A stretch of DNA of 44,541 nucleotides from Bacteroidota bacterium (lineage in GTDB: Bacteria > Bacteroidota > Bacteroidia > Bacteroidales > PUMT01): NCBI GenBank assembly GCA_003554865.1, contig PWHJ01000189.1, positions 1 to 44,541 on the forward strand, read 5' to 3'. The first letter of the stretch is position 1, and every line of letters starts with the position of its first letter. The position numbers were made by a program, and so were the translations under genes. The notes beneath the pieces were generated by a model, which was not told the DNA's origin, searched no databases, and was given only the letters and a program-made list of their open reading frames with translations. Of this stretch, positions 12,165-27,465 are shown piece after piece.

Positions 12165-14936
12165 TTATTCGGCAGGTTCGTATCCGTCAATTCTTCCTTT
12201 CTTGATTGCCGGAATACCTTCCTCCATCCAAACCGGCGCAGGTTTATCCTTAAGGTAATGATCAAAGAACTGGTTCATGCGTATATCATAATCAATCCTG
12301 TTAGGCCACCTTTGCAGGTTGTGAGCCTCATCATCATAGCTCAGAAGCCATGCCGGCGATCCAAGGCGCCTTAAAGCCATGTAAAGCTCAATACCCTGGT
12401 ACCATGGCACAGCACCATCGGCATCATTGTGCATTATCATCATCGGGGTGTCAATCTTGTCTGCAAAGAAAAGCGGGGAATTCTCAAGATACCTGAGAGG
12501 GTAATCCCACATGGTACCTCCGATACGGCTTTGTGTCTCCTCATACTGGAACTGGCGGCTTCTGCCTGTGGCCCAACGTATACCCCCGTATGCACTAAAC
12601 ATATTGCTTACAGGAGTGCCTGCAACTGCAGCGGTAAACATATCGGTCCGGGTTACAATATAGGCAGCCTGGTATCCTCCCCAGCTCTGACCGCATAGGG
12701 CAATTCTTTCACGGTCAATGAAATCATACTTGTTCAGCATCGCTTTCGTTCCGCTCACAATAGAATTGTATGCAGTCTCACCCGGGTAACCTTCAATGTA
12801 GGGATTGATGTCCGGAACAAAAACGACATATCCGTTACTTACCTGGGGTGTTGTGTATATACGGGCACGGCTCGGCATTGGTATGAAATGGTGGTGCTTC
12901 TCATGAGACTTGCGTTCATAGAAATAGACTATCATTGGGTGCTCCTTGTTGGGATCCAGGTCATCCGGAGTATATAAGAGCCCCTGCAAGGTGTCATTGT
13001 TGAACGAAACCCCCTCCACAAGCTCAACATCACCCCATCGGTATTCATCCTGCTGAGGATTGGTGTTGGATATCTTGCGGGCATTGTCAAATGACATATC
13101 GCTCAGCCACAGATCGGGATACATGCGGAAAGTGCTTTTTCTCCACATCAAAATATCTGCATCCTCCGCCTTTGTGGGTCTTAAATAACGTACATCATCC
13201 ATCACAATTTGAGAAGGAGAGCCCGGACGGTGAACGGCAACCTCATAGAAACCGCTCTGCTTGTTGTCATCATTGAAGGCATCCAGCATTAAGGTTTGCC
13301 TGCGGCCGATGTAATCATTACCCTCAAGATCAACATAACGCAACCTTATATTATTTTCACGGCCATAACCTCCGGTAACATTTACAGGCTGATCATCTCC
13401 GGCGGGATCAACCCTCCATATATCATGATGATCATAAATAAGCACATAACGTTCATCCTCAACCCAGCCAGCAATTCCGTAAGGAGAAGGCTCCTGCGGC
13501 CTGTCGTTCAGCACATTGTAAAATTCATGGGGTATGTCACCTGTGAGATTCTTTTTAGTGCCGTCCTCAACCGATATTGCATACCAGCTGCTGTCAGTAT
13601 ATTCATAATTTAAAAGATAATTCCCGTCAGGGGAAAGGCTTGTGTGGAAAAGATCCCTTTCAAGTATCTGCTCCCTCTCTCCCGTATTTACATCAACCAG
13701 GTAATAGTCACGGTAATTACTAGCCGACCAGGTGGTTTTTTTGCGGTAAGGCAAATGGGATGAGCCCAGTGCAATATCCCCGTCACCATCCTGAATAGTG
13801 CTCAGATCGGGCATATCCTCACGGGCAAGCTGAACCATACGCTCCTCTCCTAAATGGTAAACAGCCCTGTAGGTTCGCCTCATCTCCCTTTCTTTTTCTA
13901 CCAGTTGCTGGGGCTGAATGTGAGGATCTTCATAATGCCATATGTCGACCCTGTATTTTTCATCGCTAAGGAGGGTGTCCTCCGGTTCAGGCTCGGGCTT
14001 GGGGGCGGTGCCGAAATAAAGTCTGGATGCCTCACCGGAAAAACTCAGTGATCCGTGACGGCTTACACTCCAGTCCTCCGGCATCCCTGCAGAAGTTTTT
14101 TCAACAACTCTTTCAGCCTGCTCATTGCCGGCTTCCCAGTGGTAGAGATCAAAGATCCTGGGATCCTCATCATCAAAGGTGAAAACAAAAGCGGTCTGAT
14201 CTCCTTCATCATCAACAGTTAGTTGTGCCGCCTCTCCTTTATCTTCAAATATTGCAGATGACGATTCATCGGAGGTGTTGAAAACCCTTACGGGGGTTTT
14301 TACATCCGATTCCTTAACAGTCTTCACCATAGCTACAAGCTTTCCGTTATCTGAAAACGTATAGCTTTCCACATTTTCAAAAGTGTGTCTTGAGCCGGTT
14401 ACAGGGTTGTAGACAACCAGCCCGGTACCGTCAGATTCCGGTCCATCTTCATTTTCGTTTTCCTGCTCTTCCATGTGGTAAACTATCCAGTCGGAATCCC
14501 TTGAAGGAGTACTGAATGATTTAACCCCTTCAATTTTTTCGATGGCCATGTCGGAAAATGTCCATATAAAAAGGCTGTCTTCGGGAATTGCTTCCTCTTC
14601 AACCCTGGCCTGGCGTACTACATCAGCCTGAGGCTCAACCTTGAAAACAAGGAAGTTCGAATTTGGGGAAAAAGAGGCATCGGTTCCCCTTGCAACAGAA
14701 TCGATCTCATTGGATCCAACCTCTTTGAGATACAACCATCCGTCGCCGCGGTGCTGGGGATTTATCTCATAGGAGACCCATTCACCGTCTTTGCTGAACT
14801 GCTCACTTCCCAAATTTTTCCAGTCGGCATAATCGGTATGGTCAATAGTTTTTTTCGGTTCGCTGCCAAAAACAGGCGGCGCAGCAGCAAACTGTACAAA
14901 TAAAGCAACCAGAAATATTTTTATAATCATAATCAA
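12165..14936 (-). CDS. Secreted S9 (prolyl oligopeptidase-like) peptidase, copy A
   Basis: A 923-residue serine peptidase of the S9 clan with an N-terminal signal peptide (about residues 1-24), a long beta-propeller-like region and a C-terminal alpha/beta-hydrolase domain. The nucleophile motif GQSWGGYQ contains Ser751, the acid is Asp840 in HNDADGAVPW, and the base is His872 in DEAHNLQRW. The propeller part is rich in Glu and Asp, compatible with export into saline surroundings. It is the second gene of a tandem pair, 22 nt after copy B, ends with the same GRIDGYEP motif, and is followed by a terminator. It probably removes short peptides or dipeptides from protein fragments in the periplasm. 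Substrate specificity is unknown. Confidence 0.88.
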   Translation of the reverse strand: MIMIIKIFLVALFVQFAAAPPVFGSEPKKTIDHTDYADWKNLGSEQFSKDGEWVSYEINPQHRGDGWLYLKEVGSNEIDSVARGTDASFSPNSNFLVFKVEPQADVVRQARVEEEAIPEDSLFIWTFSDMAIEKIEGVKSFSTPSRDSDWIVYHMEEQENENEDGPESDGTGLVVYNPVTGSRHTFENVESYTFSDNGKLVAMVKTVKESDVKTPVRVFNTSDESSSAIFEDKGEAAQLTVDDEGDQTAFVFTFDDEDPRIFDLYHWEAGNEQAERVVEKTSAGMPEDWSVSRHGSLSFSGEASRLYFGTAPKPEPEPEDTLLSDEKYRVDIWHYEDPHIQPQQLVEKEREMRRTYRAVYHLGEERMVQLAREDMPDLSTIQDGDGDIALGSSHLPYRKKTTWSASNYRDYYLVDVNTGEREQILERDLFHTSLSPDGNYLLNYEYTDSSWYAISVEDGTKKNLTGDIPHEFYNVLNDRPQEPSPYGIAGWVEDERYVLIYDHHDIWRVDPAGDDQPVNVTGGYGRENNIRLRYVDLEGNDYIGRRQTLMLDAFNDDNKQSGFYEVAVHRPGSPSQIVMDDVRYLRPTKAEDADILMWRKSTFRMYPDLWLSDMSFDNARKISNTNPQQDEYRWGDVELVEGVSFNNDTLQGLLYTPDDLDPNKEHPMIVYFYERKSHEKHHHFIPMPSRARIYTTPQVSNGYVVFVPDINPYIEGYPGETAYNSIVSGTKAMLNKYDFIDRERIALCGQSWGGYQAAYIVTRTDMFTAAVAGTPVSNMFSAYGGIRWATGRSRQFQYEETQSRIGGTMWDYPLRYLENSPLFFADKIDTPMMIMHNDADGAVPWYQGIELYMALRRLGSPAWLLSYDDEAHNLQRWPNRIDYDIRMNQFFDHYLKDKPAPVWMEEGIPAIKKGRIDGYEPAE
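13486..13559. repeat. 74-nt block identical to 16280-16353
   Basis: Seventy-four consecutive bases within copy A of the S9 peptidase are identical to the matching stretch of copy B, followed after one difference by 35 more identical bases. The flanks of the two genes differ much more. This patchiness suggests recent gene conversion. Confidence 0.75.
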
Positions 14937-14958
14937 TAAATTTTAGTGTTTTAAATTC

Positions 14959-17760
14959 TTATTCAACCGGCTCGTAACCATCGATCCTTCCCTTCTCAAC
15001 AGCAGGTATACCTTCTTCCAACCAAACCGGCGCAGGTTTGCCTTTCAGGTAATGATCAAAAAACTGCATCATCCGCTTGTCAAGATCCATCCTGTTAGGC
15101 CATCTTCTTAAGTTATGTGCTTCGTCGTTATAATTAAGCAGCCAAACGGGACTTCCCAGGCGGCGCAAAGCCATATAAAACTCTATACCCTGGTACCACG
15201 GAACTGCACCATCGGCATCATTGTGCATCATAAGCAAAGGAGTTTCCACTTTATCTGCAAAGAATATGGGTGAATTTTCCATGTACCGCATGGGATATTC
15301 CCACATGGTACCGCCGATACGGCTCTGGGTTTCCTCATACTGGAACTGGCGGCTTCTGCCCGACGCCCAGCGTATCCCTCCGTAAGCGCTGAACATATTG
15401 CTCACCGGTGTACCGGCCATTGCTGCAGTGAACATGTTGGTCTCGGTTATAAGATGAGCTATCTGGTAACCACCCCAGCTTTGCCCCTGCAGACCGATAT
15501 TTTCACGGTCAATAAAATCATACCTGTTAAGCATGGCCTTTGTTCCGCTAACTATTGAATTATAGGCCGTATGACCCGGATATCCTTCAATATATGGATT
15601 GATATCGGGGACAAAAATTACATATCCGTTGCTCAGATAATGTGAACGGTTAATTGTTGAACGGCTTGGAGAGGGAGTATGATGAGAATGCAAACCGTTT
15701 GATGACCTCTCATAAAAATAAACTATCATGGGATACTCATCATTGGGATCAAAGTCGTCCGGAGTATAAAACAACCCCTGAAGGGTATCTTCGGTAAAAG
15801 AAACCCATTCGACAAGCTCTACATCCCCCCAGCGATACTCATCCTGCTGAGGATTGGTGTTGGAAACCTTGCGGGCATTGCCAAAAGACATATCGCTCAG
15901 CCACAGGTCGGGATACATACGGAAAGTGCTTTTCCTCCACAAAAGAATATCGGCATCCTCTGCCTTCGATGGTCTGTAATAGCGTACATCGTCCATCACG
16001 ATTTGTGACGGGGTACCCGGTCTGTGAGTCTCGATTTCATAGAAACCGCTTTGCTTGTTGTCATTGTTGAATGCATCAAGCATTATGGTCTCCCTGCTGC
16101 CTATATAATCATTATCTTCCAGGTCTATATAACGGAACCTCATATTGTTTGCCCTTGCGTAACCTCCGGTAAGATTCTCAGGCTCTTCGCCTCCTCTTGG
16201 ATCCACTTTCCATATATCATGATGATCATAAATGAGTACATAACTCTCGTCCTCGACCCATCCGGCAATTCCGTAAGGGGAAGGCTCCTGCGGCCTGTCG
16301 TTCAGCACATTGTAAAATTCATGGGGTATGTCACCTGTGAGATTCTTTTTAGTACCGTCCTCAACCGATATTGCATACCAGCTGCTGTCTGTGTATTCGT
16401 AGTTTAAAAGGTAACTGCCGTCAGGGGAAAGGCTAGTATGGAAAAGGTCCCTTTCAAGGATCTGCTCCCTTTCTCCCGTATTTACATCAACCAGGTAATA
16501 GTCACGGTAATTTTTGGCCGACCAGGTAGTTTTTTTGCGGTAGGGCAAATGAGATGACCCCAGTGCAATGTCCCCGTCGCCATCCTGAATGGTGTTCAGA
16601 TCTGGCATATCCTCACAGGCAAGCTGAACCATGCGCTCCTCTCCTATATGGTAAACTGCCCTGTAAGTGCGCCTCATTTCGTTGTCGCGTTGTACCAGCT
16701 GCTGGGGCTGAATATGAGGGTCTTCATAATGCCATACATCAAGCCTGTATTTTTCATCACTAAGAAGTGTATCTTCAGGCTCCTTCTCAGGTATGGGAGC
16801 GGTCCCGAAATAAAGCCTTTCTGCGTTACCGGAAAATTCAATAAATCCGTTTTCATTTACACTCCATCCTGAAGGCATTCCCCTTGAAGAATGGTCAACA
16901 ACTATCCCGGCCTCGTCTTTTCCGGGTTCCCAGTAGTAAAGATCATAAACCTTCGGGTCATCTTCGTCGGGGGAGAAAATAAAAGCAACCTGTTCACCTT
17001 CATCATCCGTTGTAAGGCGGCCGGAATCACCGGTCTGATCATCAAAGATAACCCTGTCGGTTTTATCAACGGTATTGAATACCCTCACAGTAACATGCTC
17101 CCGGGAATCCTTTTCAACCTGAGTCATTACAACAATCCTGCCGTTAGGTGAGAAAGTATACCTGTCAACATTTTCAAAAGAATACTCCTCGTTTGTCACA
17201 GGATTGTAAACAACCAGCTCGGTGCCGTCAGACTCCCTTTCATTCTCATCTTCATTCTCCTGCTCTTCAGCTTCCTCTTCATCTTCGGGCAACTCCTCTT
17301 CCTTGTGGTAGACAATCCAGTCAGATTCCTCCCTTGCGGTCCTGAAAGACCTCACTCTTTCAATTTTTTCCATAGACATATCGGAAAAGGTCCAGATAAA
17401 AAGGCTGTCCTCAGGCTGAGGTTCATTATCAACCCTTGCCTGGCGAACTACATCCGCCTGCGGTTTTACTGTAAATACAAGGAAATTGGAATTAGGCGAA
17501 AAGTGTGCATTTGTGCCCCTTGCTACAGAATCAATATCTCCGCCTCCCACATCCTTAAGATACAACCATCCGTCACCGCGGTGCTGTGGATTAATCTCAT
17601 ATGAAAGCCAGCCGCCGTCTTTGCTCAGCCGGTGACTTCCCAAAGTCTTCCAGTCAGCATAATCGCTCTGGTCAAGGACTTTTCTGGGCTCTTCCCCTGC
17701 AAAAAGCCGGGGAAGAATAACAATTTGCAGAAGTAATAAAATCAGTGTTGTTTTTTTCAT
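14959..17760 (-). CDS. Secreted S9 (prolyl oligopeptidase-like) peptidase, copy B
   Basis: A 933-residue paralogue of the following gene and the first of the pair. It has a signal peptide (about residues 1-21), the propeller-like part with a strongly acidic insertion (around residues 160-180) that accounts for its extra length, and the hydrolase domain with the triad Ser761 in GQSWGGYQ, Asp850 in HNDADGAVPW and His882 in DEAHNLRRW. The two proteins are alike along their whole length and almost identical in the middle (from EREQILERDLFHTSLSPDG through YDHHDIW), while N-terminal parts and surface loops diverge. Tandem duplication followed by partial divergence is the simple reading, perhaps to widen peptide specificity. 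Confidence 0.88.
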   Translation of the reverse strand: MKKTTLILLLLQIVILPRLFAGEEPRKVLDQSDYADWKTLGSHRLSKDGGWLSYEINPQHRGDGWLYLKDVGGGDIDSVARGTNAHFSPNSNFLVFTVKPQADVVRQARVDNEPQPEDSLFIWTFSDMSMEKIERVRSFRTAREESDWIVYHKEEELPEDEEEAEEQENEDENERESDGTELVVYNPVTNEEYSFENVDRYTFSPNGRIVVMTQVEKDSREHVTVRVFNTVDKTDRVIFDDQTGDSGRLTTDDEGEQVAFIFSPDEDDPKVYDLYYWEPGKDEAGIVVDHSSRGMPSGWSVNENGFIEFSGNAERLYFGTAPIPEKEPEDTLLSDEKYRLDVWHYEDPHIQPQQLVQRDNEMRRTYRAVYHIGEERMVQLACEDMPDLNTIQDGDGDIALGSSHLPYRKKTTWSAKNYRDYYLVDVNTGEREQILERDLFHTSLSPDGSYLLNYEYTDSSWYAISVEDGTKKNLTGDIPHEFYNVLNDRPQEPSPYGIAGWVEDESYVLIYDHHDIWKVDPRGGEEPENLTGGYARANNMRFRYIDLEDNDYIGSRETIMLDAFNNDNKQSGFYEIETHRPGTPSQIVMDDVRYYRPSKAEDADILLWRKSTFRMYPDLWLSDMSFGNARKVSNTNPQQDEYRWGDVELVEWVSFTEDTLQGLFYTPDDFDPNDEYPMIVYFYERSSNGLHSHHTPSPSRSTINRSHYLSNGYVIFVPDINPYIEGYPGHTAYNSIVSGTKAMLNRYDFIDRENIGLQGQSWGGYQIAHLITETNMFTAAMAGTPVSNMFSAYGGIRWASGRSRQFQYEETQSRIGGTMWEYPMRYMENSPIFFADKVETPLLMMHNDADGAVPWYQGIEFYMALRRLGSPVWLLNYNDEAHNLRRWPNRMDLDKRMMQFFDHYLKGKPAPVWLEEGIPAVEKGRIDGYEPVE
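16280..16353. repeat. 74-nt block identical to 13486-13559
   Basis: Partner of the identical block in the other S9 peptidase copy. The two lie in direct orientation about 2.8 kb apart, so recombination between them would delete one gene and leave a chimaera. Confidence 0.75.
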
Positions 17761-21112: not shown

Positions 21113-21208
21113 TGAATATTAATGCCTTAATCACCTCACTCCCTTACATTATCTTACATTTTGAATATTACTGCTTTAAGCACCTTACTCCCTTACATAT
21201 TTTACATT
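21113..21208. repeat. Tandem direct repeat, 2 x about 48 bp, overlapping a gene end
   Basis: Copy one is 21113-21160 and copy two 21162-21208, with roughly 85% identity. Copy two holds the last codons and stop of the serine hydrolase (21185). Copy one is a diverged duplicate of that gene end placed before the terminator. Confidence 0.65.
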
Positions 21209-22651
21209 GCGAGCCCGGCCGGTGTCAACCAAAAAGCCGGCAATTTCCCCGTTGTTGTCACGGTAAAACTCCACACGCCAGCCACCAACCGAAAACAATT
21301 TTTCTCCACGGTGATTCATCTCTCCTCTGGGTGAGACGGGCCTTTCCATTTTCAAAGTCCCGTTCTCTTTTTTAATCTCACATTTAGTATCATGATCGGG
21401 GTTAACATATGTTCCTTCATACTTTTCGATTTTTTCTCCAAACAGCTCCTCAAGGTACAGATCAGCCACGCTGGTGCTTATATTACCCGGATTTATATTA
21501 CCCAGGTTGGAGAAAACAACCACAGAAAACTCCTGTTCCGGGAATCTGAGGTAATCGGCCCTGAAACCCATAAACGATCCCCCGTGCCCCACGGTTTTAA
21601 TTCCCCTGTGATCCCCGAAACGTAACCCGAAGGCATAATCCAGCGTATCACCGTTATTGAGCACACCTTTTTTGTGCATAATCTCATTGAAATTGGGTGA
21701 GTGCTCAAGGCGGTTTTCATAAAAGTTTTGATCCCACTTAAGCATATCCCCGACAGTTGTATAAAGTCCGCCGGGCCCGACACCTTCGAAATTGGAAAGA
21801 TAACTGACAACAAATTCCTCGTTACGTTTCCGGTAGCTTAGCGCCCTGTTTGGAACTATTTCATGGCGGTTGTCATGAAAGTGGGTATTTTCCATTCCAA
21901 GCGGCTCAAATATATTCTCCTGTGTAAACTCCCGGAGTGTCTTCCCGGTAACCCGTTCAACAAGCACAGTCATAAGCATATAACCGCCGTTACTGTAGAG
22001 ATATTCATCACCCGGGGTGAAATTCAGGTCACTCTGACTTGCTATAACCTCCAGCTTCTCATCAAGGGAGATAACATTTGCAACATCCATTTCGGCAAAA
22101 TTAAGCACTGAATAAAGGTCACGTACCCCGCTTGTATGATGAACAAGATGTTTTACCTTCACCGGTTCCTCGTACTCGGGCATTTCAGGGATATATTCCC
22201 TGATATCGTCATCCAGGTCTATCATTCCCTTGTCAGCCATTATTGCAACAGCAGCGGCGGCAAACTGTTTTGATACCGAGCCGATGTAAAAAACGGTCTC
22301 CGGGGTGATCGGGATCCCGTGATCCAGGTTGGCCTCCCCGTATCCCTGCTGATACACAAGTTCGCCTTTGTGAATTACTCCCACAACACACCCGGGAGAA
22401 CCGGGCTCATCCCATTCCGAGAATAGCTCGTCAACACGGCTCCAGTCAAAATCATCACGCACAGGCAAACCTGCGGTCTGAACATCTGATCCTGAAGAAC
22501 TCTCCTTTTCTGAGGGTAAGACTTCGTATCTCTCTTCCGCACCGGTATTACTTTGGCCATCTGCACCAAAAGCCGCAAACGGAATGAGTATAACAAACAA
22601 AACCAATATTGTTTTACTCAGAGTTTTAATTAATTCAGGTTTTAGTAACAT
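21185..22651 (-). CDS. Secreted beta-lactamase-fold serine hydrolase
   Basis: A 488-residue exported protein with a signal peptide (about 1-30) and a low-complexity linker (about 31-65), then a class C beta-lactamase/penicillin-binding fold. Catalytic motifs are the SxxK Ser125-Val126-Ser127-Lys128, YSN at 219-221 and HGG at 356-358. This family includes D-aminopeptidases, esterases and D-stereospecific peptidases as well as true beta-lactamases; no motif decides between them. A C-terminal lipocalin-like extension (about 390-488) is common in Bacteroidetes members. It is the second gene of a two-gene unit, 59 nt after the larger hydrolase, and is followed by a strong terminator. Confidence 0.85.
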   Translation of the reverse strand: MLLKPELIKTLSKTILVLFVILIPFAAFGADGQSNTGAEERYEVLPSEKESSSGSDVQTAGLPVRDDFDWSRVDELFSEWDEPGSPGCVVGVIHKGELVYQQGYGEANLDHGIPITPETVFYIGSVSKQFAAAAVAIMADKGMIDLDDDIREYIPEMPEYEEPVKVKHLVHHTSGVRDLYSVLNFAEMDVANVISLDEKLEVIASQSDLNFTPGDEYLYSNGGYMLMTVLVERVTGKTLREFTQENIFEPLGMENTHFHDNRHEIVPNRALSYRKRNEEFVVSYLSNFEGVGPGGLYTTVGDMLKWDQNFYENRLEHSPNFNEIMHKKGVLNNGDTLDYAFGLRFGDHRGIKTVGHGGSFMGFRADYLRFPEQEFSVVVFSNLGNINPGNISTSVADLYLEELFGEKIEKYEGTYVNPDHDTKCEIKKENGTLKMERPVSPRGEMNHRGEKLFSVGGWRVEFYRDNNGEIAGFLVDTGRARNVKYVRE

Positions 22652-22710: not shown

Positions 22711-24591
22711 TTAAAACCTCCATCCCAGCAGGTTCCAGAAGTGGAGCTGCCAGAGGGCAGCGAAAAAAACTATTATTACAATAATACAAAATAGCTTGTT
22801 GCGAATATTTATCTTCCAGTTATTCCACACATAGGTAAACCTCCATATCATAAAAAGCAAAAAGAAAAGAGCGGGAAAAGGCATCATCATTCCTGCCTTC
22901 ATTCCCGCAGGAATATCTATAACCAGCTCCCTGCCGGCCTCGTAGGCAGGATATATTAATATGTAAGAAACGGCTATACATGCGGCACACAACCAGGCCG
23001 GCAATTTCACATCTGCCGGCAGCAGCCTTGACTTTCTTTTTGAGGGCCTGTACCTGAGTCTTGTCAAATAAAGCCCCGGCCAAATTATCAATATATAAAA
23101 AATCGATATAAGGGAAAGCCGTATAATTGTTCGATGAAGCGTTAGGTTGTAAAACCTTGTAATTCTTTCAAAAGCTATAAAAGGAGAATATTCTTTAAAC
23201 ATATAGGAGGCCTCTTCCTCTTCCATTTCAAAAGCTATGCGCTCATTGCTGTCCTCTTTGCGGAAGGTGGTCTCATCAACAGGCAGCCAAAATGTTGTCT
23301 CCCCGTCTGGTTCAACCATTCGCAACTTCCCGTCGGCCGTTGTTATTTCGGTTACCCCGTCCAGTGCTCTTATCTTAAAAAAATCGGAATGGGAACGCCG
23401 GTTTGAAAAATAGCTCCCCGTAAATCTTTCAAGCTCTTCCTGCTGCAAAGTTACGGTTTCAAACAAAGGTCGCGGGTCCGGATAATAGCGCTCTGCAAAT
23501 TTTTCCAGCACTTTTCCCGAAACACCCGAGCCTCCCGAACTGTTAAATGAGACAAAAATACCTGTGTTATGTTCGGGCAAAATGGCCAGTATCGAATGGA
23601 ACCAAAAAGTGGCACCGCCATGGCCGATAATTTCTGTATCATTTCGGCTCATATCGGAAAAACCGTGCCTTGCAGGATTCATCCCTTCGGAATGTATAAC
23701 CACAGGCTCTTTCATCCTGGAGTAAGATGCAGAATCAAGCAGGCAATAATCCCCCGTACACGTGCTATCCAGGAGAAAATTCATAAACTTTGCCATGTCG
23801 CGTGCAGAGGAAGAAGCCCCGCCAACCCCTTTCATGGGGATATATTCAAAATACATCTCATTTAACTTTCCGCCCCCGGAAGCATAACCTTTGGAAAGGT
23901 TACCTTCAAGGCTGTCAGGCAGGGGCTGACGAAAAGTTGTGCCGGTCATCCCAAGCGGTCCGATAATTTTATCGTGTGCATACTCCTCGAAAGACACACC
24001 CGTGATACGCTCCACCACATACTGCGCCACACCGGTACCATGATTACTGTAGGAGGCATACCTTAGAGGAGGCCGAACCCTTTTTGGCAACTGTTCCGGC
24101 AAAATCTCATCCATTGGCAGCATATCACCTGGCTCCCTAGCAAAAAGCCTGTAAAGCCTCTCCTCGAAACCGGGTGTATGGGACATCAGGCTGCGCAATG
24201 TAACAGGCTGCTCATAGGTCTCCGGTATACTGAAATCAAGATATTCATTCACATCCCTGTCAAGGTCAACACTTCCCTCTTCGGCAAGCTGCATAACCGA
24301 AAGCCATGTAAACAACTTCGAAATGGATGCAATACGGAACATTGTAGAAGAAGGGTCAACTTCAATACCTTCCTCCACATCAGCATAACCATACCCTTTT
24401 TCAAGGAAAATTTCTCCCTCATGGACAACTGAAACCACAGCTCCTGCAATATTTTTTTCATCCATGAAGGTTTCTATAACCCCGTCAAGAAAAGACTGCA
24501 GCTCTGTACTGTCGGTTATCCCGCCCCGGGCCGGATTAACAGGCATAAGAAAGAACAGAACAAGGAAAATACTAACGGCAATTTTGTGCAT
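22711..24591 (-). CDS. Membrane-anchored beta-lactamase-fold serine hydrolase
   Basis: A 626-residue protein. After a signal sequence (about 1-23) comes the catalytic domain with Ser89-Ile90-Ser91-Lys92, YSN at 181-183 and the HGG motif in IIGHGGATFWF. A second domain (about 385-475) is followed by four predicted membrane helices (about 482-505, 521-545, 560-585 and 595-620). The catalytic part would face the periplasm, anchored by the C-terminal block. It is the first gene of a pair with the soluble paralogue and is divergent from the racemase-like lipoprotein gene. A role in cleaving D-amino-acid-containing or cell-wall peptides is plausible from the neighbourhood but not shown. Confidence 0.83.
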   Translation of the reverse strand: MHKIAVSIFLVLFFLMPVNPARGGITDSTELQSFLDGVIETFMDEKNIAGAVVSVVHEGEIFLEKGYGYADVEEGIEVDPSSTMFRIASISKLFTWLSVMQLAEEGSVDLDRDVNEYLDFSIPETYEQPVTLRSLMSHTPGFEERLYRLFAREPGDMLPMDEILPEQLPKRVRPPLRYASYSNHGTGVAQYVVERITGVSFEEYAHDKIIGPLGMTGTTFRQPLPDSLEGNLSKGYASGGGKLNEMYFEYIPMKGVGGASSSARDMAKFMNFLLDSTCTGDYCLLDSASYSRMKEPVVIHSEGMNPARHGFSDMSRNDTEIIGHGGATFWFHSILAILPEHNTGIFVSFNSSGGSGVSGKVLEKFAERYYPDPRPLFETVTLQQEELERFTGSYFSNRRSHSDFFKIRALDGVTEITTADGKLRMVEPDGETTFWLPVDETTFRKEDSNERIAFEMEEEEASYMFKEYSPFIAFERITRFYNLTLHRTIIRLSLISIFYILIIWPGLYLTRLRYRPSKRKSRLLPADVKLPAWLCAACIAVSYILIYPAYEAGRELVIDIPAGMKAGMMMPFPALFFLLFMIWRFTYVWNNWKINIRNKLFCIIVIIVFFAALWQLHFWNLLGWRF

Positions 24592-24654: not shown

Positions 24655-24686
24655 TTTGTATTTCACCCTAAAATAAGCTATTTTTA
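24655..24686 (+). promoter_or_regulatory. Possible promoter of the racemase-like gene
   Basis: TTTG (24655-24658), 20 nt, then TATTTTTA (24679-24686), one base off the TAnnTTTG consensus. The predicted start is about 55 nt before the ATG. Confidence 0.5.
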
Positions 24687-24746: not shown

Positions 24747-26285
24747 ATGAAAGTATACCTGAAAAATTTAACCGGCCGCATACTTAAAACATTGTTTGTA
24801 ACAGGGGGCGCCGTCATTTTTCTTTTTGGCGCATCGTGCGAGAGACCTGAAGAAAAAACCATAGAGGATGTTATACTCAATGACAAGGAAAGCTATTTCT
24901 ACATTGACTTCGACGATTATCCGGAAGAGAGAGCCCCCCTGCCGATTGGTGTGTTCGATTCCGGTACCGGTGGACTTGCAGTGCTGAACGATATTATTGA
25001 TTATTACCCTGAAGAAAATGAGGATTCCCGCCTTTTTGAAAATGAATCTTTCATTTACCTGGCCGATATGGCAAATATGCCTTACGGCAGTTATGCACTG
25101 GAGGACAATACCGAACTGCTGCAGGAACATATAATTAAAAACGTGCAGTTTTTGCTTGATGAAAAATACTATCTGGAAGCTGACGATCAAGATTATATAA
25201 CCGGTAAAGATCCTGTAAAAGCTATAGTTATTGCCTGCAACACCGCCACTGCTTACGGGCAGGAGGAAATTGAAGAGTTCCTGGAGAAGGCAGGAATGGA
25301 CGATATGATAGTAAAAGGAGTCATTGATGCGGCAACCACAGGTGCTATCAATGAGTTTTCAGATCATGAAGACGGCACCGTGGCTGTTATGGCAACAGAC
25401 GGTACTGTAAGATCGGGCGCCTATGTAACATCCCTTGAGGAGAAAAAAGATGAGCTGGGAAGGGAAGGTGATATAGGCATTTTTCAGCAGGCTGCCATAG
25501 GTATTGCAGAGGCGGTTGATGAAAACAGCGATTTTATAGACAGGTCAGCTACAGAGCCCAGGGAAGGCTATATGGGCCCTTCCGAAGAGGGCGACCCCCC
25601 GCTGTTTATCAATCTTGACATATTGGACCGCTACCATTTCGACATGGAGGACAATGCCATGCTCTTTGACGGCACACCTGAAAACCCGGAAAACATACAA
25701 ATCAATTCGGTTGAAAATTATGTCGCCTTCCACCTGGTATCTCTTATGGAAAAGATAAAAAACAGTGAAGACCCCCAGCCCCTTAAATCAATAATCCTGG
25801 GCTGCACTCATTACCCATATGTGGAAGATGTATTCGTTGAAGTTCTTGACAAATTGCGGAACTACATTGAGGAGGGCCAGTATGTTTATCGCCCCTACAT
25901 GGAGGATGAAATAACACTTGTCAATCCGGCAGTTAAAATTGCGGATCAGCTTCATAAAAGACTTGAAGAAAGGGAGCTGCTGACAGATGAGAACAATTAT
26001 ATGGATAGTGAGTTTTTTATTGCCGTGCCCAACATATTGAACGAAAATTTAGAACTCAGGGAAGACGGCTCTTTCACCTATGAATATAAATACGGGCGTA
26101 CAGCCGGCGAAATACAGGAATATGTGAAACGCGTACCCTTCAGCCGCCGTGCGATACCTGACGACATACTTGAAAGGCTTGCCGAACAGATATCCTCAAC
26201 TTATGAAATTATGGTGCGTTTCAATGAAGAAAATCCCAAAACAGAGCACCTTACTGAAGAGGAAAAAATAAAACTCCCGGAGTAA
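24747..26285 (+). CDS. Exported lipoprotein homologue of glutamate racemase
   Basis: Glutamate racemase (MurI) interconverts L- and D-glutamate in the cytoplasm for peptidoglycan. This 512-residue protein keeps the MurI signature: GVFDSGTGGLAVL (68-80), YLADMANMPYGSY (104-116), first catalytic Cys164 in IACNTAT and second catalytic Cys353 in LGCTHYP, then LVNPAVKIADQL. It differs in two ways. It begins with a hydrophobic export signal ending FGASC, so Cys31 may be lipidated, although Gly rather than Leu at -3 is not canonical. The distance between the two cysteines is 189 residues, against about 110 in MurI, implying an extra segment of roughly 80 residues (about 231-320), plus a C-terminal extension of over 100 residues. 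It stands next to two divergent serine hydrolases. Racemase activity on glutamate or another acidic amino acid outside the cytoplasm is an inference. Confidence 0.8.
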   Translation: MKVYLKNLTGRILKTLFVTGGAVIFLFGASCERPEEKTIEDVILNDKESYFYIDFDDYPEERAPLPIGVFDSGTGGLAVLNDIIDYYPEENEDSRLFENESFIYLADMANMPYGSYALEDNTELLQEHIIKNVQFLLDEKYYLEADDQDYITGKDPVKAIVIACNTATAYGQEEIEEFLEKAGMDDMIVKGVIDAATTGAINEFSDHEDGTVAVMATDGTVRSGAYVTSLEEKKDELGREGDIGIFQQAAIGIAEAVDENSDFIDRSATEPREGYMGPSEEGDPPLFINLDILDRYHFDMEDNAMLFDGTPENPENIQINSVENYVAFHLVSLMEKIKNSEDPQPLKSIILGCTHYPYVEDVFVEVLDKLRNYIEEGQYVYRPYMEDEITLVNPAVKIADQLHKRLEERELLTDENNYMDSEFFIAVPNILNENLELREDGSFTYEYKYGRTAGEIQEYVKRVPFSRRAIPDDILERLAEQISSTYEIMVRFNEENPKTEHLTEEEKIKLPE

Positions 26286-26397: not shown

Positions 26398-27465
26398 TCA
26401 GGCTCTATTTATCCATGATGCAATAAAATCACCAACATGAGAAGTCCCCTTTGCCATGTCCGGATCAAGATCCTTTGTAACTACACCTTCCTTTAATGAA
26501 GCCTCTGCTGCCTTCTTGACAATGGTTGCCTCCTGCTTAAGCCCGAAGGCATATTCAAGCATCATCGATGCGGAGAGAATCGCCGCAAGAGGGTTTGCAA
26601 CATTTTTTCCGGCAGCCTCCGGATAAGATCCGTGTATGGGTTCGAAAACAGAAGTGTTATCGCCGACCGATGCCGAAGGTATCAACCCCAAAGAGCCGCT
26701 TATCACAGCAGCCTCATCAGTGAGTATGTCGCCAAACATATTCTCGGTAAGTATAACATCGAAATCACGCGGACTACGTATAATCTGCATAGCAGCATTA
26801 TCAACATACATATAATCAACACTGACCCGGGGATATTCTTTTTCCATCTCTTTAATAGATTCCCGCCACAACCTTGATGTGGCCAGAACATTGGCTTTAT
26901 CGACCATAGTTAGCTTGTTGTCTCTTTTAGTGGCAAAGTCAAAGGCCAGATGTGCAATCCGCTTTATCTCATCACGGCGGTAAACAGAGGTATCAAAAGC
27001 GGTATTACCGTCTTCTGACCTCCCCCTTGGCTCTCCGAAATAAATGCCTCCGGTGAGCTCTCTTATGGTAAGAAACCCGGCACCTTCCACAATTTCTCTT
27101 TTAAGAGGTGACATATGCAAAAGCGGCCTGAATGTCAAAAGAGGCCTTATGTTGGCAAAAAGTCCAAGCTTTTGCCTCATATCCAAAAGACCTTTTTCGG
27201 GCCTGATCTTTGCAGCCGGATCATTGTCAAAGCGCGGATCTCCTATGGCCCCGAAAAGTACAGAATCAGAGCTCATACATATTTTGTGTGTTTTATCAGG
27301 ATAAGGATCGCCTGTTTTTTCAACAGCCACAGCACCTATCAAACCTTCCCTGTACCTGGGTTCATGCCCTTTTTTATTGCACACCGCATCAATAACTTTA
27401 ACCGCCTGCCTGGTTATTTCAGGACCAATGCCGTCACCCGGCAGCAAAGCAATATTTAGTATCAT
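26398..27465 (-). CDS. leuB: 3-isopropylmalate dehydrogenase
   Basis: Oxidises and decarboxylates (2R,3S)-3-isopropylmalate to 4-methyl-2-oxopentanoate with NAD, the third stage of leucine synthesis. The 355-residue protein has LLPGDGIGPE at the start, the substrate arginines within GLFANIRPL and IRELTGGIYFGEPRG, the KANVLATS segment with the catalytic lysine, the FGDILTDEAA metal motif and the cofactor segment EPIHGSYPEAAGKNVANP. It is the last gene of the ilvB-ilvC-leuA-leuC-leuD-leuB operon, 21 nt after leuD, and is closed by a strong terminator. Confidence 0.95.
   Translation of the reverse strand: MILNIALLPGDGIGPEITRQAVKVIDAVCNKKGHEPRYREGLIGAVAVEKTGDPYPDKTHKICMSSDSVLFGAIGDPRFDNDPAAKIRPEKGLLDMRQKLGLFANIRPLLTFRPLLHMSPLKREIVEGAGFLTIRELTGGIYFGEPRGRSEDGNTAFDTSVYRRDEIKRIAHLAFDFATKRDNKLTMVDKANVLATSRLWRESIKEMEKEYPRVSVDYMYVDNAAMQIIRSPRDFDVILTENMFGDILTDEAAVISGSLGLIPSASVGDNTSVFEPIHGSYPEAAGKNVANPLAAILSASMMLEYAFGLKQEATIVKKAAEASLKEGVVTKDLDPDMAKGTSHVGDFIASWINRA

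Follow-up and report, generated by a model that had tools for sequence, protein, structure and literature searches.

MurI enzymes are regarded as cytoplasmic enzymes of cell-wall synthesis and as a drug target. The window analysed here (the whole stretch of DNA, 44,541 nucleotides, from a Bacteroidota bacterium) contains a gene for a MurI homologue that begins with an export signal, and we asked what such a protein would do outside the cytoplasm. The 512-aa product of the ORF at 24747..26285 (+) is called the window protein below, and the features of the locus are collected in Table 1.

Sequence and genomic setting of the window protein

MurI enzymes are about 270 residues long and cytoplasmic, whereas the window protein has 512 residues and an export signal. 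It matched TIGR00067 with an E-value of 2.7e-25, but its 89.2 bits are under the curated cut-off of 146.65, and its score against PF01177 (17.9 bits) is below the Pfam gathering score of 31. The match to MurI in the PDB had an E-value of 4.7e-15. Judged by these comparisons of sequence, homology to MurI is far beyond chance. The initial annotation had described a MurI homologue with both catalytic cysteines and the substrate motifs, and these are present: C164 and C353, and the motifs DSGTGG (71-76), ANMPYG (109-114), CNTAT (164-168), GTVRS (219-223) and GCTHYP (352-357).

The racemase-like gene stands alone between a divergent upstream gene and the convergent downstream leuB. Proteins similar to the divergent serine hydrolase also sit divergently beside orthologues in L006/L054 and L060. 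Elsewhere in the window, a tandem pair of closely similar S9-family peptidases (923 and 933 aa; 12165-17760, - strand) looks like a duplication.

Table 1 Features of the racemase-like gene and its surroundings in the window.
Feature	Position	Strand	Basis or remark
MurI-like CDS	24747..26285	+	512 aa, ATG start, stop codon within coordinates; supported by orthologues
Lipoprotein-type export signal through Cys31	24747..24839	+	Sequence; Cys31 invariant in 12/12 rows
IGVFDSGTGGL motif with Asp71/Ser72	24945..24977	+	D71 and S72 invariant in 56/56
CNTAT, first catalytic Cys164	25236..25250	+	56/56 relatives
Asp258, at the place of the invariant MurI Glu	25518..25520	+	Asp in 56/56; profile alignment
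Family-specific insertion (about residues 262-328), hairpin about 305-319	25530..25730	+	Spacing, profile gap, model strands
CTHYP, second catalytic Cys353 and His355	25803..25817	+	C353, T354, H355 and P357 in 56/56; Y356 in 55/56
C-terminal extension, YKYGR...QEYVK.VPF	26034..26282	+	Motifs of the extension served to find the family
Possible Bacteroidota-type promoter (TTTG, spacer, TAttTTT)	24655..24685	+	Relaxed match only; candidate
leuB	26398-27465	-	Converges on the racemase-like gene from downstream
Beta-lactamase-family serine hydrolase, divergent neighbour	22711..24591	-	Signal-like N-terminal segment
Second beta-lactamase-family serine hydrolase	21185..22651	-	Nearest NCBIfam model is D-aminopeptidase, far under its cut-off

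A family of relatives in Bacteroidota and other phyla

Strong matches to the window protein were found in 5 of 98 other close genomes, four of them near full length at 47-72% identity. The fifth (L010/L039, 8467-9462, - strand) is an exported racemase-like ORF with a large internal deletion that removes the Cys164 region; the D-aminoacylase-like ORF beside it is shortened. Between the window gene and four near relatives dN was 0.21-0.31; dS was saturated for three of the four, and the one usable dS was 3.8. In a sample of the phylum, 8 of 395 genomes, the window's own included, had matches (E up to 1e-20). A scan of genome contigs with the single protein gave no relative. Scanning species-representative genomes with an alignment of the C-terminal part succeeded and revealed 219 relatives, from which the best 80 were kept (L054-L133). 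These sources overlap, and some genes occur under more than one locus number.

All of the best 80 loci match the window protein, and 72 are full length at a limit of 480 aa; this leaves out six ORFs cut by the end of their contig and the broken ORFs L073 and L083. The organisms are mostly Bacteroidota, with additional MAGs from Ignavibacteriota, KSB1, Calditrichota, Neomarinimicrobiota and Planctomycetota. A tree of 113 rows from a fast method has one branch that separates the 73 exported rows from all others (SH-aLRT 96) and another that does so for the 36 canonical MurIs (SH-aLRT 81), with a long-branch warning. A plasmid search returned 28 records, all of them partial matches that span less than 80% of the query; among the matches listed, those with an annotation are named glutamate racemase.

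Genome G022 also holds a member of a second MurI-like subfamily (L157, 1246-2241, - strand; TVVITDSGLGGLAV), of about 330 aa and with its own signal-peptide-like N-terminus. The relatives of this subfamily elsewhere in the phylum (L147-L149, L156) seem to have no such N-terminus.

The export signal is a family trait

The N-terminus of the window protein (MKVYLKNLTGRILKTLFVTGGAVIFLFGASC, then ERPEE) combines a basic n-region, a hydrophobic stretch and a cysteine at the cleavage site, Cys31, which would be the putative site of lipid attachment. These are the features of a lipoprotein signal. By the classical lipobox consensus, Gly at position -3 is weak, and the lipobox of the window protein is accordingly weak. 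The export signal with a cysteine at its cleavage point that the initial annotation had read here is nevertheless well conserved: Cys31 is invariant in all 12 orthologues of the first set, the window protein included.

Whether orthologues share the signal or start near residue 60 was the check that had been proposed for this claim. An export segment was found in 72/72 full-length relatives (73/73 with the window protein) and in 0/36 canonical MurIs, and no full-length relative starts near residue 60. All 73 family proteins have 50-101 residues ahead of the DSG motif region, including a charge-free hydrophobic 10-mer, whereas in the canonical MurIs (n=36) this part is 0-16 residues long and never includes a 10-mer of this kind. 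A mis-called start is thereby ruled out as the origin of the signal. The broken ORFs show the same trait. L073, with an apparent start near residue 60, follows an assembly gap, and an in-frame lipoprotein-type signal lies just past the gap; for the short ORF of L083, a lipoprotein-type signal was found in another reading frame. A script assigned 62 of the 72 full-length relatives to the lipoprotein type and 10 to the ordinary type. Inspection by eye shows two script calls in each direction to be wrong (L108 and L133 are ordinary, L106 and L125 lipoprotein-type), and the totals stay the same.

Cysteines other than the catalytic ones are scarcer in the exported family than in MurI (0.37 versus 1.00 per 100 aa, with kinship ignored). 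The window protein contains Cys only at positions 31, 164 and 353.

Catalytic residues and predicted fold are kept, with one substitution

We aligned the window protein with 55 of the 72 full-length relatives. Residues D71, S72, D107, P112, Y113, G114, C164, N165, T166, T217, T220, C353, T354, H355 and P357 are invariant in all 56 rows. A profile-profile comparison of the family with 28 of the 36 canonical MurIs gave a probability of 100 and an E-value of 4.9e-51. By our reading of the alignments, 24 of the 26 columns that are invariant in canonical MurI are kept in the family (invariant or at least 90%). The exceptions are a change from Pro to Ala195 and one from Glu to Asp258. The latter position is Glu in 28/28 canonical sequences and Asp in 56/56 exported relatives; in MurI, this Glu follows the first domain and belongs to the active site.

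The AlphaFold2 model of the mature window protein is confident (pLDDT 94.6, pTM 0.92), and its best Foldseek match is MurI of B. anthracis (E 1.8e-14). Structural re-comparison with 2gzm gave Z 28.7 and an rmsd of 2.4 Å over 258 aligned residues, so the two domains of the window protein are predicted to be placed much as in MurI. Comparison with aspartate racemases gave Z of about 12-17, and the fold is common to the PF01177 superfamily. The comparison with MurI that had been suggested thus favours a two-domain MurI fold that is kept.

Insertion, C-terminal extension and hairpin cysteines

Cys164 and Cys353 are 189 residues apart in the window protein. In canonical MurI the median distance is 113 (110-126, measured on 35 of the 36 sequences, with L012 skipped). 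The insertion between them is therefore about 76 residues, close to the 80 given at first. Across the 72 relatives the spacing is 187-197, and it does not overlap with that of the 35 canonical MurIs, which rules out a chance insertion. The window protein is also longer than MurI by about 30 residues from the DSG motif to Cys164 and by about 77 past Cys353, which bears out the C-terminal extension noted initially. Inside or near the insertion, Y275, G277, P278, Y296, Q318, N320, N324, Y325 and E335 are invariant in 56/56 rows.

In 47 of the 73 proteins a pair of Cys residues lies across the insertion hairpin (two of these proteins have a third Cys). The other 26, among them the window protein, have none, and a single Cys occurs in no protein. 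Such a pair is as expected outside the cytoplasm. The 47 proteins coincide with one clade of the tree, so the pair may have arisen in one event and been well kept.

Canonical murI in the same genomes

A PF01177 search of the window genome gave four other loci. One of them is a canonical murI, with 207.8 bits against TIGR00067 (cut-off 146.65), and the genes beside it are presumably Skp/OmpH-like. The normal murI that was to be looked for is thus present, which makes the exported racemase-like gene a paralogue and rules out 24747..26285 as the only MurI of the genome. Of 13 genomes that carry the exported gene (in G022 as a broken copy), 12 have a canonical MurI above the cut-off, so the supply of D-Glu for the wall does not need the exported copy there. 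In G370 (Litoribacter ruber, L072; a 99% complete genome), no canonical MurI above the TIGR00067 cut-off was found, and D-amino-acid transaminase scores were all under the cut-off (best 136.5 of 277.45 bits). This organism may make D-Glu another way, or the genome may be incompletely covered.

Gene neighbourhood

We clustered the genes of the best 80 of the 219 loci and listed their order, naming SusC/SusD neighbours by eye and the others by Pfam. A D-aminoacylase-like gene (Amidohydro_3) is found in 35/80 loci. In 32 of them it is the next gene, on the same strand, and all but one of these 32 pairs overlap or are no more than 150 bases apart. It lies upstream of the racemase-like gene in 26 loci and downstream in 6, depending on lineage; the order has thus changed and the linkage stayed. 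An N-terminal hydrophobic segment is carried by 35 of the 36 neighbouring D-aminoacylase-like proteins of at least 300 aa. Other neighbours in the 80 loci are SusC-like (28), M14 peptidase (22), SusD-like (18), gamma-glutamyltransferase (15), SDF symporter (11) and C26 peptidase (10) genes, and some lineages have an amidase next door or an acyltransferase-like gene just under the Pfam cut-off. Amide hydrolases that carry export signals are, together with uptake genes, the most frequent partners, an indication of scavenging and not of cell-wall synthesis.

Many loci, including that of the window, have none of these genes adjacent. Most loci with the D-aminoacylase link are flavobacterial, and the link is missing in many lineages, e.g., the window, Sphingobacterium and Ignavibacteriota. 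The window genome has four D-aminoacylase homologues away from the racemase-like gene. In G022, two adjacent genes are shortened, the racemase-like one and the D-aminoacylase-like one beside it, which fits either a shared fate or a local assembly fault. One member of the D-aminoacylase family, OngB, uses an oxidised amino sugar as its substrate and has hardly any activity towards N-acetyl-D-Glu (PMC9537276). Given this different substrate, the D-aminoacylase-like neighbours can be assigned a substrate only provisionally.

Two further gene families recur at these loci. Cluster C6 is a conserved exported protein family at 14 loci (e.g., L086 10408-11730 and L112 10411-11649). Its gene often follows that of the racemase directly, its His/Asp/Glu/Cys motifs are invariant, and some members end in a T9SS-like C-terminus. 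In Foldseek, a model of C6 (pLDDT 73.1) resembled M14 carboxypeptidase (E about 6e-4) and aspartoacylase (E about 8e-4) only weakly and with very poor superposition; it also matched a T9SS-type C-terminal domain. A glucosamine-6-phosphate deaminase-like gene (C30, named by eye) lies near the racemase in L079, L088, L096, L118 and L122.

Proposed function and alternatives

On the support of the export signals, the conserved catalytic residues, the fold, the family and the neighbourhood, we infer the activity, substrate, direction, membrane side and role of the protein. We see an even chance that it is an exported, membrane-anchored glutamate racemase of a distinct MurI-like family, cofactor-free and catabolic, that helps to scavenge D-Glu amides and peptides. 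After export, lipid attachment at Cys31 would anchor the protein in the membrane. Outside the cytoplasm, the two-domain MurI core would interconvert D- and L-glutamate, with Cys164 and Cys353 transferring the proton in the usual cofactor-free way that relies on two thiols. Exported amide hydrolases, which vary with lineage between D-aminoacylase-like enzymes, gamma-glutamyltransferase and peptidases of the C26 or M14 type, could free D-Glu or gamma-linked Glu from polyglutamate, N-acyl amino acids or fragments of the cell wall. L-Glu made by the racemase from this D-Glu would then be imported by an ordinary glutamate-type symporter. The initial annotation had suggested racemisation of acidic amino acids outside the cytoplasm; the location and the catalytic machinery of that suggestion are well supported, and the activity is a prediction.

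Several points count against a scavenging racemase: the invariant Glu of MurI is Asp, the D-aminoacylase link is missing in many lineages, and the relatives are not independent of each other. In addition, thiol catalysis in an oxidising compartment needs protection. We hold it plausible, though short of an even chance, that a whole family of cofactor-free glutamate racemases has moved out of the cytoplasm to supply the chiral step in surface or periplasmic loci for the consumption of D-Glu-containing polymers or N-acyl-D-amino acids, its two catalytic thiols still at work in an oxidising compartment. The enzyme may even invert Glu that is amide-linked.

A related alternative, which we consider rather unlikely but serious, is an exported racemase or epimerase with a changed substrate, inverting N-acylated, gamma-linked or peptide-end Glu for the adjacent D-specific hydrolases. 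The invariant residues of the insertion (Y275 to E335), the change to Asp258 and the tight linkage with D-aminoacylase-like amidohydrolases would all suit it, but the MurI core is kept in 24 of 26 columns. The changed activity that the initial annotation also allowed may be real, in view of the invariant Asp and of the insertion's own invariant polar residues. It is improbable that the protein is a producer rather than a consumer, turning L-Glu outside the cytoplasm into D-Glu that serves wall editing or signalling or is released. In favour of this, racemases work in both directions, D-amino acids are known products of periplasmic PLP-dependent racemases, and no canonical MurI above the cut-off was found in G370; against it, hydrolase and uptake genes form the neighbourhood, and a canonical MurI is present in 12 of 13 genomes. 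We give equally little credence to the loss of racemase function, the MurI scaffold then serving to bind a ligand or to catalyse another reaction. The scores under the PF01177 and TIGR00067 cut-offs and the large insertions are compatible with this, but both catalytic Cys and the Asp, Ser, Thr and His do not vary in 56/56 rows from several phyla, and a binder would not need all of them. A misread signal, on a protein that stays in the cytoplasm or is held on the inward side of the inner membrane, is very improbable despite the weak -3 position of the window lipobox, given export segments of two signal types in 73/73 proteins versus 0/36 canonical MurIs, paired cysteines and neighbours that carry signals.

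If the scavenging racemase is real, it would add a way of turning over D-amino acids outside the cell without a cofactor. It could also account for the use, by some marine and sediment Bacteroidota, of D-Glu that comes from polyglutamate or from the walls of dead cells. It would also offer a test of two-thiol catalysis in an oxidising compartment, and the label 'glutamate racemase' on such genes would not mean wall biosynthesis.

Comparison with known systems

Periplasmic amino acid racemases such as the Pseudomonas taetrolens enzyme and the Bsr type have a different fold and a PLP cofactor. The window family would share with them amino acid racemisation outside the cytoplasm but has a MurI fold and, by analogy with MurI, should need no cofactor.

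An exported or periplasmic MurI-type racemase was not found in searches of open PMC full texts. RacX/EcL-DER belongs to the same superfamily of PLP-independent Asp/Glu racemases, and in the text searched, which does not contain the term 'signal peptide', it represents another subfamily and not the exported one (PMC12838360). RacX from a Flavobacteriales strain is ~27 kDa and has Ala79 at the place of the first catalytic Cys (PMC12838360). For eukaryotic D-amino acid enzymes, a predicted signal peptide is reported, in the part of the source consulted, only for transferred D-amino acid oxidases (PMC5169069).

The commonest neighbour is a homologue of D-aminoacylase and N-acyl-D-glutamate deacylase (PDB 1m7j and 3gip; E 1.6e-58 and 2.4e-49), a partner gene and not a racemase. 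The loci resemble the SusC/SusD utilisation loci of Bacteroidota in the SusC-like and SusD-like genes nearby (28/80 and 18/80). Unlike Sus-type loci, they combine peptidases, an amidohydrolase and a racemase, with no glycoside hydrolase recognised among the recurrent clusters.

Also among the closest known systems is MurI/RacE (TIGR00067; PDB 2gzm, 1zuw and 1b73), with which the window family shares the fold, the two catalytic Cys and the Asp/Ser/Thr/His motif, implying cofactor-free chemistry. It differs from MurI/RacE in being exported, in having about 60 extra N-terminal residues, about 76 between the cysteines and about 77 after the second, in the Asp for the invariant Glu, in a score below the TIGR00067 cut-off and in its separate branch of the tree.
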